Source: Thioalkalivibrio sulfidiphilus HL-EbGr7
Lineage (GTDB): Bacteria > Pseudomonadota > Gammaproteobacteria > Ectothiorhodospirales > Ectothiorhodospiraceae
DNA length: 64,000 bases
Assembly: GCF_000021985.1 (NCBI RefSeq)
Contig: NC_011901.1
Span: 1,178,001-1,242,000, forward strand
Direction of reading: 5' to 3'
Shown here piece by piece: positions 21,487 through 53,372 of the stretch (the stretch's first letter is position 1; each line of letters starts with the position of its first letter). The translations under genes were made by a program, and so were the position numbers. The notes beneath the pieces were generated by a model. The model had not been told where the DNA came from and searched no databases. It saw only the letters and a list, made by a program, of their open reading frames with translations.

Positions 21487-23193
21487 TCAGCCAGGCGGCA
21501 TGCTTTGTGCGGCGTCCAGCGGGATCGGCCGCTGGATGCCGTAACCCTGGGCGAAATCGACGCCCACCTCTACCAGGCGCTCTCTGATCGCCTGCGTCTC
21601 CACGAATTCCGCGATGGTCTTCAGCCCTGCGACATGTCCGATTCGGTTGATGGCGTCGACGATGGCCAGGTTCATCGCGTCCTCGTCCATGTCCCGGATG
21701 AAGCTGCCATCGATCTTGATGAAGTCGGCGGGGATAGTCCTCAGGTAGGAGAATGAACTCATGCCGGTGCCGAAGTCATCCAGGGCAATCCGGCAACCGA
21801 GTTGCCTGACTTGCTCGATGAATTTCAGGGCGCTACCCAGGTTGGTGATGGCGGCGGTTTCTGTGATCTCGAACCCGACCATGGAAGGGGGCAGGTCATG
21901 TTCCTGCAGCGCATGGCTGACATGGGCGTAGAAGGATTCATCGCTGATCGTTGCGGCGGAGAGGTTGAAGAAAAACATCTCGCTGTTCAGCGGTGCACCC
22001 TGGCGTCGGCAGCGGGCGAGCCAGTGAAATGCGTTGCACAGGACCCAGCGGTCCAGGGCCGGCATGAGGTTGTAGCGCTCTGCCGCGGGTATGAAGGCAC
22101 CCGGCGGTATGAGTTCTCCCCGCTCGTCGAGCATGCGCAGCAGGATCTCGCAGTGGGATGAGCCGTGTGGTCCGAGTGGCGTGATGCACTGGCGATACAG
22201 CCTGAAACGGTTCTCCTCCAGTGCCTGGTTCAGACGCCCCACCCACTGCATCTCGTTGTGGCGTTGCAGCAGTTCCTGATCGTCAGCGCGATAGATATGG
22301 ACCCGGCCGCGGCCCCTGTCCTTGGCGGCATAACAGGCCATGTCGGCCATGCGCAGTACGTCGGACGCGCGCAGGTTCGCATCATCGAGCATGACCAGGC
22401 CGATGCTGGCGCCGATGAGGAAGCTCTTGTCCCGCCACACGTAGCGGAAATCACGCACCAGGTCCACGATCCGACCGGCAACCTGCTGCGCCTCATCGAG
22501 TCTGCAGCCGCTGAGCAGCACGCCGAACTCGTCTCCGCCCAGGCGTGCCAGGGTGTCGCTGTCACGTATCGGTGTCCTGAGCAGTACGGACAGCTGGCGC
22601 AGCATGCCGTCGCCGGCCTCGTGGCCACAGGTGTCGTTGATGATCTTGAACTGATCCAGGTCCACGTACAGCAGCGCGTGTTGTTCACGTTCGCTGGCCG
22701 TGCGCAGCGCCTGGTGAAGGCGTGCCTCGAATTCCCTGCGGTTGACGAGACCGGTGAGCGGGTCATGATAGGCCAGGTGTTCGATGGTCTGTTGTGCCCG
22801 GCGATGGGCTTCCCGGTTCCTGGTCTCACGCAATTCCCGCTTGATGGCCGGACTCAGCCGGGCCAGGTTGTGCTTCATGATGTAATCGTTGGCGCCATCC
22901 TTCATGGCGGCCACGGCGATGTCTTCGCCGATGCTGCCCGAGACGATGATCACCGGCAGATCCAGGCCCGTGTCCTTGATGATCGCGATCGCCTCTGCGG
23001 AACCGAAACCAGGCATGTTGTGGTCGGTGATGACAATGTCCCAGCTTTTCTCCCGCAGTGCCTCCCTCAGGGCGGGGGCGCTGTCGACACGTACATGTCC
23101 CGGTCGGATGCCGTCCTTTCGCAGCTCACGCAGGAGCAGCTCGGCGTCGTCCTCGGAGTCCTCGATCAGGAGAATGCGCAGATCACTGCTCAT
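21487..23193 (-). CDS. Receiver-GGDEF-EAL cyclic-di-GMP enzyme
   Basis: A 568-residue soluble response regulator. The receiver (~5-125) carries the phospho-Asp in VITDHNMPGF and the Lys in YIMKHNL. The GGDEF domain (~140-300) has RLGGDEFGVLL intact and an RDSD inhibitory site five residues before it. The EAL domain (~315-560) has CEILLRML in place of EAL, with EITETA, DDFGTGMSSFSYL and DFIKIDGSFI present. So both synthesis and breakdown of c-di-GMP are possible, controlled by phosphorylation. It is the last gene of the binding protein-kinase-regulator operon and is a paralogue of the protein at 51657-53372. Confidence 0.93.
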   Translation of the reverse strand: MSSDLRILLIEDSEDDAELLLRELRKDGIRPGHVRVDSAPALREALREKSWDIVITDHNMPGFGSAEAIAIIKDTGLDLPVIIVSGSIGEDIAVAAMKDGANDYIMKHNLARLSPAIKRELRETRNREAHRRAQQTIEHLAYHDPLTGLVNRREFEARLHQALRTASEREQHALLYVDLDQFKIINDTCGHEAGDGMLRQLSVLLRTPIRDSDTLARLGGDEFGVLLSGCRLDEAQQVAGRIVDLVRDFRYVWRDKSFLIGASIGLVMLDDANLRASDVLRMADMACYAAKDRGRGRVHIYRADDQELLQRHNEMQWVGRLNQALEENRFRLYRQCITPLGPHGSSHCEILLRMLDERGELIPPGAFIPAAERYNLMPALDRWVLCNAFHWLARCRRQGAPLNSEMFFFNLSAATISDESFYAHVSHALQEHDLPPSMVGFEITETAAITNLGSALKFIEQVRQLGCRIALDDFGTGMSSFSYLRTIPADFIKIDGSFIRDMDEDAMNLAIVDAINRIGHVAGLKTIAEFVETQAIRERLVEVGVDFAQGYGIQRPIPLDAAQSMPPG

Positions 23194-40667: not shown

Positions 40668-40886
40668 ATGAAAGTGGAAATGGGTGAAGAGGGACTGAAT
40701 ATCCTGGACATGTCCCGGGACCAGGCGGGGCTGCTGGTGGAGGCGCTCAAGGCATCGCCGAAGCAGGGCTTCATGGAGGATGAGGAACTACGTCGCCTGT
40801 TCAAGCTGCTGGCGGTGGTGCAGTCGGATCTCTGGGATGACATGACCAGCGGCAAGTTCGACTTCTCGGCCTACAAGCGTCAGTAA
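40668..40886 (+). CDS. Small hypothetical protein
   Basis: A 72-residue soluble protein, start ATG 40668; an upstream in-frame extension reads as Ala/Arg/Ser-rich and is unlikely to be real. It is acidic, with DMSRDQAGLLVEALKASPKQGF and LFKLLAVVQSDLWDDMTSGKFDFSAYKRQ. No family recognised. It follows the RND permease by 140 bases and ends at a perfect hairpin, which argues for a genuine gene. Confidence 0.65.
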   Translation: MKVEMGEEGLNILDMSRDQAGLLVEALKASPKQGFMEDEELRRLFKLLAVVQSDLWDDMTSGKFDFSAYKRQ

Positions 40887-40891
40887 GGCGA

Positions 40892-40920
40892 TGAGGTGTG
40901 GGGATCGACCCCACACCTCA
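40892..40920. terminator. Bidirectional hairpin, 12-bp stem
   Basis: A perfect stem (40892-40903 with 40909-40920) with a 5-base loop lies between the small gene and the convergent lipoprotein gene. No long T-run follows on either strand. Confidence 0.65.
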
Positions 40921-40940
40921 CAACCACTCCCCCAGCCAAC

Positions 40941-41696
40941 TCACGGAATGACCAGCTGCGTCTCGCAGGTTTCCACGCTGCCGCAGTTGTTGCTGCCCGT
41001 GCCGGTGCAGGTCAGGCCCTGTGAAGGCACGTTCACTGACACCGAGTGGCTGTAGCTGCCCGAGGCGGTACCCAGTTTGATCCGGTAGCTGTCCACGAAG
41101 GTGCAGGCGCCATCCAGGGTCATGTTCGGTGCGGTCCAGGCCAGCGTCACCACCGACCCGGAGGCCAGATCCCCTGATGCCTCGTTGGAATCCGGGCTCT
41201 CCTGTCCCAGGTCATCGATGGCCTGCACGGCCACATACCAGGTGTTCAACTGCACGACGGGTTCCGGTTCCGGTTCAGGGGCCGGCGCGGGCGCAGGTTC
41301 GGGCTCAGGCTCGGGCTCAGGTGAAGGCGCGGGTTCCGGATCGGGGATCGGATCCGGTTCGGTGATCGGCTCCGGCACGGGATCAGGTTGTGGCTCCGGC
41401 TCCGGCTGGGACGGGGGTGGCGTCGGAGTCATGCCGGGGCTGGATTGCGACGGTGCCTCTTCCGTCTGCGGGTCGCTGTTGCTGACCTGATTAGCGACGT
41501 CTTCCTCGACACAGCCCGACAGCAGGGCAATGCCCAGAAAGCCGGTGGCCAGTGCGCGCAGAAGCGTCGTGGAGATCGTTCCGGACGGATGGGACGCAAT
41601 GCCATGGCAGTAGCACGCGGCAATGGGCGTGTCATTCGATCGCGCGTTGAAACATGCGGCGGCATCACGGCCACCCGAAAACATCGTCTTCGTCAT
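40941..41696 (-). CDS. Riboswitch-controlled lipoprotein with Pro-Glu linker
   Basis: A 251-residue protein. The start at 41696 follows the riboswitch with GGAG ten bases upstream; the open frame continues upstream only because it reads through the riboswitch. A lipobox GIALLSGC lies near residue 58, so the leader is long. A Pro/Glu/Asp-rich linker (~90-150, PEPEPE repeats) leads to a C-terminal fibronectin-III-like domain with [25 protein letters not shown] and four Cys in pairs. I infer an envelope-anchored protein that spans the periplasm or reaches the surface. It is a paralogue of the protein at 42190-43083. Confidence 0.82.
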
Positions 41697-41780
41697 TTCG
41701 GTAACTCCGCTGTCATGGCCGAAGCCGTAGACCGGTGGTTTTGCGTCCCCGCCTTTCGGTCGGGTATGCCCTTTCGATGA
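41697..41780 (-). promoter_or_regulatory. Cyclic-di-GMP-I (GEMM) riboswitch 1
   Basis: On the minus strand, the GEMM-I consensus appears in order: AAGGGCAUACC, a GAAA-tetraloop hairpin (CCGACCGAAAGGCGG), GGGACGCAAAACCACCGG, a variable second hairpin around CUACGGCUUCGGCCAUG, and the closing AGCGGAGUUACCG. The GGG that includes the ligand-contacting G is kept, as in c-di-GMP rather than cGAMP forms. The AUG of the lipoprotein begins 3 bases after the element, so its likely ribosome site GGAG lies inside the aptamer, pointing to translational control. Confidence 0.9.
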
Positions 41781-42130
41781 GCTTTTTTTCTTAACGCGTG
41801 TTGGGCCTGTCCTTGTGTCGTTCCGCCATCCCGCGAGGGAAGGGCGTGAATGGATGTCATCCGATTCCCTGATGACCCGTGGCGTGAAGTATGTGGAGTG
41901 CGCTGGTCGAGAGCCGTGATGCCCTTCACGGGGCGCGTGCCGTGAATCCGGCTTTGCACGCCATTCATCGACCAATTTCGTGAACGGTGACGGGGCTCAC
42001 ACGTGAACCCGGGATGTGCGTGTCTCAAGCCATACGCACGGACTGTGACGTGCGTTCGATGTTTGTGCGAAGACGCGGGTGTGCTCGGCGCCGGAGGTGC
42101 ATCTGGCGCGGATCCTTCGGGTCGATGTTC
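41781..42130. other. Intergenic stretch upstream of riboswitch 1
   Basis: The promoter for the riboswitch-lipoprotein transcript should lie here (minus strand), but I cannot name boxes with confidence. No credible gene or repeat is seen. Confidence 0.45.
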
Positions 42131-42135
42131 ATAAA

Positions 42136-42171
42136 AAAGCGCCGGGTCCCAGGGATGGAACCCGGCGCTTT
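42136..42171 (-). terminator. Rho-independent terminator after the PEPEPEPQ protein gene
   Basis: A 12-bp GC-rich stem (42136-42147 with 42160-42171) is followed on the minus strand by TTTTTT, 18 bases after the stop codon of the gene it ends. Confidence 0.9.
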
Positions 42172-42189
42172 GGTTCGATGCCGATGGCC

Positions 42190-43635
<1,446 letters not shown>

Positions 43636-43676
43636 TTGATCGTGGTCAAGGAAGCTTCATGGGCAGCGTCCATACT
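43636..43676 (+). promoter_or_regulatory. FNR/Anr-type box and -10 (class II arrangement)
   Basis: TTGATCGTGGTCAA (43636-43649) matches the FNR consensus TTGAT-N4-ATCAA at nine of ten positions. A -10-like CATACT at 43671-43676 would place the start near 43684, with the box centred about 41.5 bases upstream, the classic class II activation position. The genes downstream are a small Cys-rich protein and the hydrogenase operon, so anoxic activation makes sense. Confidence 0.7.
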
Positions 43677-43709
43677 TGAGCAAACGACAAGGATGAGGAG
43701 ACGCCCACG

Positions 43710-51656: not shown

Positions 51657-53372
51657 TCAGGGTTGCCGGGCGATGTGCGGCAATGGTCTGGGCCGGGCGA
51701 TGCCGTATCCCTGGGCATAATCCACCCCCAGTTGCGCCAGACGCTGGCGTACCCCTTCCGTCTCCACGAACTCCGCAATGGTCCTCAGTCCGGCCACGTG
51801 GCCGATGCGGTTGATCGCCTCCACGATGGCCTGGTGCATCTCGTTCTCGTGCATGTCGCGCACGAATCCACCGTCGATCTTGATGTAGTCCGCAGGGATG
51901 TTGGACAGGTAGGAGAAGGAACTCAGGCCGGTGCCGAAGTCGTCCAGGGCCACGTGGCAGCCGAGATCGCGCATCCGCTGGATGAAACGAACGGCATTGC
52001 CCAGGTTGGCGATCACGGCCGTCTCCGTGATCTCGAAACCCAGCGCCTCGGGTGGGATGGCATGTTCTCTCAGGCGCTCGGTGACGTGAGCCAGGAACGC
52101 ATCATCGCCCAGGGTCAGGCCGGACAGGTTGATGAACCAGCGGTAACCCTTCGGCACTTGTCCTTCCCTCAGCAGCTGGCGTATGCGCGGCAGCGTCAGT
52201 TCCAGTACCTTGCGGTCCACGGTGGGCATGAGGTTGTAGCGTTCCGCCGCCGGGATGAAGGCCCAGGGTGAGATCACTTCACCGCTCGGGTCGAGCATGC
52301 GCAACAGGATCTCGCAATGGCCGGCGGTGTCCGGTTTGAGCGGATGGATTTCCTGGTAGTAGAGCAGGAAACGATCCTGCTCCAGGGCCTCGTTGATGCG
52401 CGCGGTCCATTGCATCTCGCTGTGCCGGGCCATGAGCGTGCGATCGTCTTCCCGGAACAGGTGGACGCGGTTTCGTCCCTTGTCCTTGGCCGCGTAGCAG
52501 GCCATGTCCGCATGGCGCATGACATCGGAGAGCGACAGATCAGGGTCGTCGAGCAGGGTCAGCCCGATGCTGGCACCGATGCGGAAATTGTGCTCACCCC
52601 AGGTGTAGCGAAAATCGTTGACGATGGAGAGCATGCGCCGGGCCACCTGTTCGGCCTGCTCGAGGGTACATTCGTCCAGCAGCACACCGAACTCATCACC
52701 CCCCAGACGGGCCAGGGTGTCGTGTTCCCGCACCGGGATCTGCAACAGGCTGGCCAATTGTCGCAGCAGGTCATCGCCGGCCTGGTGCCCGCAGGTGTCG
52801 TTGACCAGCTTGAACTGGTCCAGGTCGATGTAGAGCAGTGCGCTGGGACGCTGCCGCCGGGCCTTGGCCAGCGCCTCCTTGAGCCGGGTCTCGAAGCCAT
52901 GGCGATTGATCAGGCCGGTGAGCGAGTCGTGCAGGGCCAGGTGGTTGATGGCTTCCTGGGCCTGCCGGTTTTGGCGGCGCACCTCGTGGTCGCGCAGTTC
53001 CCGGTCTATGGCCGGGGCGAGTCGGGACAGGTTGTCCTTGAGGATGTAGTCCTGGGCACCGTTGCGCATGGCGCTGACGGCGATCTCCTCGCCGATGCTG
53101 CCGGAGACGATGATCACAGGGATGTCCTGATCCCGTTCCCGGACCAGGCGCAGGCAGTGGCCGGAATCGAAGCCGGGCAGATTGTGATCGGTGATGATCA
53201 GGTCCCAGGCGTGCCCGCTCTCCAGGGCTGTCTGCAGTTGCTCGATGCTGTCCACCCGGGTGCAGTCCGGGGAAAAACCTCCCCGCTGCAACGCGCGCAA
53301 CACCAGCACAGCGTCGTTCTCGGAATCCTCCACCAGCAACAGGCGCAGGGGGTGGGCGGCTACGGAATCCAT
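51657..53372 (-). CDS. Receiver-GGDEF-EAL cyclic-di-GMP enzyme (paralogue)
   Basis: A 571-residue protein with the same layout as that at 21487-23193. Receiver with LIITDHNLPGFD (phospho-Asp) and DYILKDNLSRL (Lys); GGDEF domain with RLGGDEFGVLL and an REHD inhibitory site five residues before it; EAL domain with CEILLRML, GFEITETAVIAN, DDFGTGLSSFSYL and YIKIDGGFV. Both enzymatic activities look possible. It overlaps the kinase gene by 13 bases, so it is the likely phosphate acceptor of that kinase. Confidence 0.93.
   Translation of the reverse strand: MDSVAAHPLRLLLVEDSENDAVLVLRALQRGGFSPDCTRVDSIEQLQTALESGHAWDLIITDHNLPGFDSGHCLRLVRERDQDIPVIIVSGSIGEEIAVSAMRNGAQDYILKDNLSRLAPAIDRELRDHEVRRQNRQAQEAINHLALHDSLTGLINRHGFETRLKEALAKARRQRPSALLYIDLDQFKLVNDTCGHQAGDDLLRQLASLLQIPVREHDTLARLGGDEFGVLLDECTLEQAEQVARRMLSIVNDFRYTWGEHNFRIGASIGLTLLDDPDLSLSDVMRHADMACYAAKDKGRNRVHLFREDDRTLMARHSEMQWTARINEALEQDRFLLYYQEIHPLKPDTAGHCEILLRMLDPSGEVISPWAFIPAAERYNLMPTVDRKVLELTLPRIRQLLREGQVPKGYRWFINLSGLTLGDDAFLAHVTERLREHAIPPEALGFEITETAVIANLGNAVRFIQRMRDLGCHVALDDFGTGLSSFSYLSNIPADYIKIDGGFVRDMHENEMHQAIVEAINRIGHVAGLRTIAEFVETEGVRQRLAQLGVDYAQGYGIARPRPLPHIARQP

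Follow-up and report, generated by a model that had tools for sequence, protein, structure and literature searches.

A c-di-GMP-I riboswitch aptamer (aptamer 1) lies on the minus strand at 41697-41780 of the 64,000-nucleotide stretch of DNA that we analysed, called the window throughout, and is followed without a gap by the start codon of an exported-protein gene (gene 1, 40941-41696, minus strand). A Shine-Dalgarno (SD)-like GGAG is part of the aptamer itself. We consider it probable that this riboswitch does without a separate expression platform and acts as a translational OFF switch by direct occlusion of the ribosome site. The riboswitch class is known and the arrangement little described, and we do not claim priority for it.

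Structure of the aptamer and position of the ribosome site

When the window was searched against 4227 Rfam families, aptamer 1 matched RF01051 over model positions 1-87 of 87 with 69.5 bits (E-value 1.5e-11; gathering score 35 bits), and the ends of the match coincide exactly with those assigned in an initial annotation of this DNA. That annotation had proposed a search with the GEMM-I model as a check and had named the absence of a GEMM match as refutation; the match obtained was significant. RF01051 was still the best model of its clan for aptamer 1 when 1.6 kb was searched with laxer filters. The elements of the GEMM-I core listed in the annotation, namely the GAAA hairpin, GGGGACGCAAAACC and GCGGAGUUACCG, were all recovered in the same order, and the Rfam alignment places the GAAA tetraloop of P2 at 41754-41757 (minus strand). 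According to the pair list, the 3' strand of P3 occupies 41703-41709 (minus strand), with its partner at 41733-41740, and contains the SD-like GGAG (41705-41708, minus strand), which forms a duplex of -6.1 kcal/mol with the 16S tail. Three of the four bases of this GGAG are paired in the Rfam structure, and its A faces a C in a mismatch. The ATG at 41694-41696 (minus strand), which is kept in the orthologous locus L016, is located 3 nt past the last conserved C and directly abuts the Rfam end, consistent with the claim of a start codon within three bases of the aptamer. The proposal of a ribosome site inside the aptamer held up as well, as the GGAG in P3 stands 8 nt before the ATG and the same layout recurs in the genus and in homologues from another family, which also begin at an abutting ATG. 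Likewise, an open frame with a TTG start (40941-41975, 344 aa) was found to read through the aptamer. Gene calling by open frame alone would thereby misread the aptamer as a false protein N-terminus.

From the abutting ATG, gene 1 encodes an exported protein of 251 aa with a Pro/Glu-rich linker and a C-terminal beta domain. Its designation as a lipoprotein agrees with the LSGC lipobox, whose cysteine is residue 62. The hydrophobic signal stretch, however, begins only 44 residues after the start, behind a leader of 44 codons (41565-41696, minus strand), which is unusual.

Further copies in the genome and the genus

A second aptamer (aptamer 2, 43084-43167, minus strand) matched RF01051 with 68.6 bits, again over model positions 1-87 of 87. 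It lies 1.4 kb from aptamer 1 and abuts the start codon of gene 2 (42190-43083, minus strand), a paralogue of gene 1 that encodes 297 aa. An ungapped comparison of the two aptamers gives 73 identical positions out of 84, and blastn with gaps gives 94% identity. The SD-like GGAG inside aptamer 2 (43092-43095, minus strand) is in the same register as in aptamer 1, and aptamer 2 is also traversed by an open frame (42190-43344). Some 90 nt upstream of this aptamer, we noted a GC-rich inverted repeat with the arms CGCTGTGACGGGGCG and CGCCCCGTCACAGCG (43259-43348, minus strand).

A search of the complete contig of 3,464,554 bases, which is the only one of this genome, identified four c-di-GMP-I aptamers. 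In all four, and in all four of the congeneric genome G004, an ATG 3-4 nt past the last conserved CC opens the frame of an exported protein. Genome G003 has this layout at one of its three aptamers; locus L017 of the same genome has an abutting ATG too, which opens three codons only. The single aptamer of G002 lacks the layout, and no aptamer match was obtained in G001, an assembly that is 82% complete. In total, nine of the 12 aptamers of the genus have an abutting ATG that opens an exported-protein frame. The aptamer end and the start codon read GCGGAGUUACCGAA-AUG in genes 1 and 2, GCGGGGUUACCGAA-AUG in L002 and GCGGGGUUGCCCACC-AUG in L001. In each of the nine loci, the best anti-SD duplex within the 20 nt before the ATG involves the GGAG or GGGG of the aptamer (-6.1 to -6.3 kcal/mol), a motif that makes up the 3' strand of P3. 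Because of the C-A mismatch, the A of GGAG costs one P3 base pair in genes 1 and 2. We did not retain this mismatch as a mark of selection for an SD: among the 122 pattern matches listed from named records, four have C-A, and one of the four is followed at +1 to +6 by an ATG that opens 100 aa or more, numbers too small for a conclusion.

Three pairs of loci from sister species were compared. The aptamers are identical at 84, 83 and 84 of 84 positions and the stretch from the ATG to +7 at seven of seven positions in each pair. The upstream flanks agree at 78, 57 and 93 of 110 positions and the segments from +8 to +30 at 21, 15 and 20 of 23, both in ungapped counts, so that indels lower the figures for the flanks. 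The aptamer is thus the most conserved of the stretches compared between sister species.

The proteins encoded behind the aptamers are partly related. Gene 2 has a Pro/Glu-rich linker as gene 1 does, and genes 1, 2 and L002 have a C-terminal domain of about 100 residues in common, all copies of which stand behind an aptamer, three of three in this genome and three of three in G004. For gene 1, this domain was predicted to be all-beta with a mean pLDDT of 80.6. A Foldseek comparison with the PDB returned no match with an E-value under 0.07, and Pfam gave fibronectin-III for L002 below threshold and no family for the domain of gene 1. The Pfam match Trypan_PARP was below the cut-off and was set aside as an effect of composition (the Pro-Glu repeat). 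Weak matches to the C-terminal domain in seven other genomes of 274 (11 loci) were not accompanied by an Rfam match. By eye, gene 1, L002 and L014 have a lipobox and gene 2 has none.

Regulatory mechanism

In the reading that we favour, aptamer and expression platform would be a single object. The SD GGAG belongs to P3, the conserved C of the ligand pocket sits five positions ahead of the start codon, and the latter, directly after the aptamer, could possibly serve as the 3' strand of P1. The identity of the aptamer, the placement of SD and ATG and the conservation are shown by the sequences, whereas the ligand, the OFF direction and the mechanism are inferred. Given these positions, the bound aptamer and the 30S subunit would compete for the same bases, and translation would consequently be expected to be OFF at high c-di-GMP. 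Binding of c-di-GMP would lock P3 and the junction, so that the 30S subunit could not load, and initiation at the abutting ATG would follow when c-di-GMP drops and the aptamer loosens. An SD embedded in the aptamer and an adjoining start codon, the sequence features that define direct occlusion, are both present. The distance from the Rfam end to the ATG leaves zero space for a separate platform, although one could still lie within the coding region. A scan of 40800-43700 that allows loops of 3-8 nt listed no terminator-like site on the minus strand, and no sigma-70-type promoter was recognised in the same region. By eye, we found that gene 2 is succeeded by a GC-rich inverted repeat and Ts (42137-42170, minus strand), with 11-bp arms and a 12-nt loop and hence absent from the scan, which suggests that gene 1 probably has its own transcript.

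Folding calculations are less favourable to the simple OFF model. In ViennaRNA, which considers neither ligand nor tertiary contacts, other folds were preferred over the aptamer core for aptamer 1 (-23.2 versus -18.8 kcal/mol) and aptamer 2 (-22.0 versus -17.8 kcal/mol). In the ligand-free ensemble, the unpaired fractions of the four SD bases were 0.28, 0.27, 0.76 and 0.38 in aptamer 1 and 0.03, 0.16, 1.0 and 0.28 in aptamer 2. The ensemble thus partly hides the SD, and a clearly open free state is not predicted; this is where the simple OFF model is weakest. Such pairing is what an ON switch would require, in which a ligand-free hairpin hides the SD and binding of c-di-GMP rearranges the RNA so that the ribosome loads. 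However, P3 of the aptamer core itself contains three of the four SD bases, the pocket would fall within the footprint of the 30S subunit, and a platform for the rearrangement would have to be sought in the coding region. There is a precedent for activation in Vc1, which reportedly promotes the expression of gbpA when c-di-GMP is high (accessible text of PMC11218506). All in all, we regard an ON switch as unlikely.

Less certain within the favoured OFF mechanism is the participation of the start codon in P1. Possible P1 stems that would join the start codon to the 5' flank are UCAU/AUGA, UCGUUA/UGACGA, GUUUC/GAAAC, GAUCA/UGAUC and GCCAUG/UAUGGC. These covariation-like stems occur in five of six loci; combining the shuffle probabilities of the six by Fisher's method gave p = 8e-5 when overlap with the AUG was required and 3e-4 when it was not, both post hoc. 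At aptamer 1, the candidate 5' strand UCAU (41777-41780, minus strand) faces AUGA at 41693-41696, and shuffling gave p = 0.10, or 0.07 with AUG overlap required, which is weak for this locus taken singly. The candidate of L001 has just 3 bp (UGG/CCA), and L001, L195 and L196 show no P1-AUG stem (p = 0.57, 0.28 and 0.99). When flanks were swapped between loci, the pairs scored 8.9 on average versus 11.3 for the own flanks, yet 3 of 30 swaps scored at least 12. With the core enforced, the three bases of the AUG were unpaired at 0.84, 0.45 and 0.40 in aptamer 1 and 0.96, 0.87 and 0.55 in aptamer 2; being largely unpaired in the energy model, the AUG does not receive energetic support for pairing in P1. 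As the pairing was noticed before it was tested, does not gain from the energy model and is absent in two independent loci, we regard it as a possibility and not as a firm feature.

The translation start

The abutting ATG is probably the true start codon, because homologues in another family begin there with an ordinary-looking signal peptide. The loci in question, L195 and L196, come from one genus of family f127 in the same class, match the c-di-GMP-I-GGC model RF03167 and have an ATG 3 nt after the CC, which opens frames with a signal peptide that is canonical by eye. Their proteins align with the protein behind L001 with 27 and 20% identity and have the C-terminus in common with it. In a search of 369 genomes with a model built from members located behind aptamers, the L001 protein family turned up in no more than three genomes and always behind an aptamer.

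Within the genus, the leaders between start codon and signal stretch comprise 20-79 codons, which is odd for exported proteins. This raises the question whether translation could instead start internally, beside the signal peptide. In that case, the abutting ATG would open a leader that is regulatory or due to chance, and the riboswitch would act at a distance in the usual manner. Loci L002 and L014 indeed have an in-frame internal ATG where the signal peptide begins, and the SD-like energies are -4.7 and -5.8 kcal/mol; L019 has one with -2.5 kcal/mol. Gene 1, however, has no in-frame ATG, GTG or TTG between codon 5, itself an ATG, and the signal stretch; the orthologous L016 likewise has just an ATG at codon 5 and no start at the signal peptide, and L004 lacks the ATG of L019. 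The six leaders of L002, L003, L004, L013, L014 and L019 are all open in the correct frame. Taken singly, they are unremarkable (shuffle p 0.28-0.57 each), and L004 is open in its two remaining frames, too; the joint product, calculated by hand and post hoc, is about 0.004. Substitution patterns point in both directions. The leader of the pair L003/L016 looks selected (dN 0.08, dS 0.31, dN/dS about 0.25). In the pair L004/L019, the leaders are orthologous yet strongly diverged and almost neutral (dN 0.66, dS 0.88, whereas the mature part has 0.08 and 0.61), and the changes lack codon periodicity (25, 25 and 23 at positions 1, 2 and 3). In L001/L006, dN equals dS (0.12). Outside the genus, locus L187 in a genome of the class has an RF03167 match whose end coincides with an ATG that opens a 500-aa frame; here, an internal ATG and a stretch similar to a signal peptide come after a leader, resembling L002 and compatible with an internal start. 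Considering the start of L195 and L196 together with the absence of an internal candidate in gene 1, we judge an internal start to be quite unlikely. In L002 and L014, the internal ATG may possibly give rise to a second, shorter product in addition to the one from the abutting ATG.

The ligand

In the Rfam alignment, G12, A40 and C80 of the aptamer correspond to G20, A47 and C92 of Vc2 in what we take to be the Vc2 numbering. An A at the position of Vc2 G20 marks the variant that binds cGAMP (cyclic AMP-GMP), whereas both aptamers in the window have a G there (G12). The equivalences of the Vc2 pocket positions are given in the available portions of PMC11218506 and PMC9262584, the latter of which describes the G20 position as contributing to selectivity without being a hard filter. 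Riboswitches for cGAMP were first annotated as c-di-GMP riboswitches, according to the portions available of PMC9262584 and PMC7266159, a point in favour of cGAMP as ligand; given the G, we nevertheless consider this very unlikely. The genome contains 48 GGDEF matches, which makes it likely that c-di-GMP is produced. Two GGDEF domain matches of the diguanylate-cyclase type are found in the window (22306-22773 and 52467-52937, both minus strand). A decayed aptamer without function is extremely improbable, as the aptamer surpasses the other compared stretches in conservation and is present in four copies in each of two genomes.

Occurrence outside the genus

A sequence pattern without the ATG had 23 matches in 18 of 398 genomes of the phylum, and the pattern that requires an ATG 1-5 nt past the CC had 12 matches in nine of these genomes. 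Four of the 12 belong to the genome studied here and eight to one genus that is Vibrio-like by sequence, where the ATG opens 7-43 codons. The match in L112 lacked an Rfam match, indicating that a pattern match is not always an aptamer, and two pattern matches on viral contigs lacked one as well. RF03167 matches were detected in 67 of 369 genomes. From these many matches, 29 loci outside the own genome were taken, 20 of which were resolved in a first pass by motif, with two near. Three of the 29, namely L187, L195 and L196, two of them from one genus, have an ATG that opens a long frame and lies between -3 and +8 relative to the Rfam end. Shifted control windows gave 0, 0, 0, 5, 1, 4, 2 and 2 of 29, and the three loci thus do not exceed what chance would yield. 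Among the pattern matches listed from named records (119 stretches), 19 of 122 have any start codon within 12 nt that opens at least 60 codons, many of them by chance. Since the wider samples show no enrichment of start codons close to the aptamer, we abandoned the idea that the layout is widespread. Two single observations concern the c-di-GMP-I-GGC class. In L115 (JAHKKM010000090.1, a Proteobacteria MAG), a match to this model ends in GGAGUUACC-AAA-ATG and is followed by a 472-aa frame whose product resembles a membrane protein by eye, with a possible P1 CAUUU/AAAUG (p = 0.03). Genome G202, a relative from the class, contains 12 c-di-GMP-I-GGC matches.

It is conceivable, at a little under an even chance in our estimate, that a subset of c-di-GMP-I and c-di-GMP-I-GGC riboswitches has shed its expression platform entirely and turned into a portable regulated ribosome-binding site (RBS), with P3 as the SD and P1 closing over the start codon, that was placed on unrelated exported-protein genes, and that the genus grew a weakly constrained in-frame leader ahead of the signal peptide.

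Comparison with known riboswitches

Aptamer 1 resembles other RF01051 members in its full-length match, the GAAA tetraloop, the pocket core and its position upstream of an exported-protein gene on the same strand. What sets it apart is the apparent lack of a separate platform, with 84 nt from the aptamer start to the AUG. The related model RF03167 is the best model for L001, L002, L006, L013 and L017 in the genus and for L115 and L133 elsewhere, whereas the window aptamers reach 56.2 and 58.5 with it, below the cut-off of 59, and fit RF01051 best. Vc2 of Vibrio cholerae has the aptamer class in common with aptamer 1; judging from the title of a study by Inuzuka from 2018, it reportedly masks a ribosome site distant from the aptamer, whereas the site lies within the aptamer here. 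In the accessible part of PMC9262584, Vc2 is called a translational OFF switch. For Bc1, the distance from aptamer start to AUG is 220 nt, and the compared stretches of Bc2, Vc1 and Vc2 measure 152, 200 and 224 nt; RBS and AUG of Bc1 are trapped in the bound structure (both from the available text of PMC11218506). Our literature search covered mostly non-subscription sources other than the original GEMM paper, in part as excerpts, and within this range the c-di-GMP-I switches use terminators or a ribosome site outside the aptamer, and none with the RBS inside was found.

An RBS within or close to the aptamer is described for riboswitches in general (excerpts of PMC7266159). Among the orphan motifs of Thioalkalivibrio, mgtE has SD and AUG at the base of P4, and in ykoW P1 overlaps the SD (available part of PMC11109978). 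Both are unrelated orphan candidates that were not matched here, but since their stems take in SD or AUG, structured RNA that includes the ribosome site is nothing unusual in these bacteria. Closest in layout are SAM-II/V, SAM-III, SAM-SAH and some preQ1 riboswitches, in which the RBS is embedded in or adjoins the ligand-binding fold and the aptamers are different. In the accessible sections of PMC10907184, these are listed as direct-occlusion riboswitches, with c-di-GMP-I absent from the list, and one aptamer class is stated to be able to employ several mechanisms. If our reading is correct, an aptamer that doubles as ribosome site would be about the shortest possible switch of this kind and a simple c-di-GMP-regulated RBS, and the direct-occlusion group would gain a sensor for a second messenger that is built on a three-way junction.
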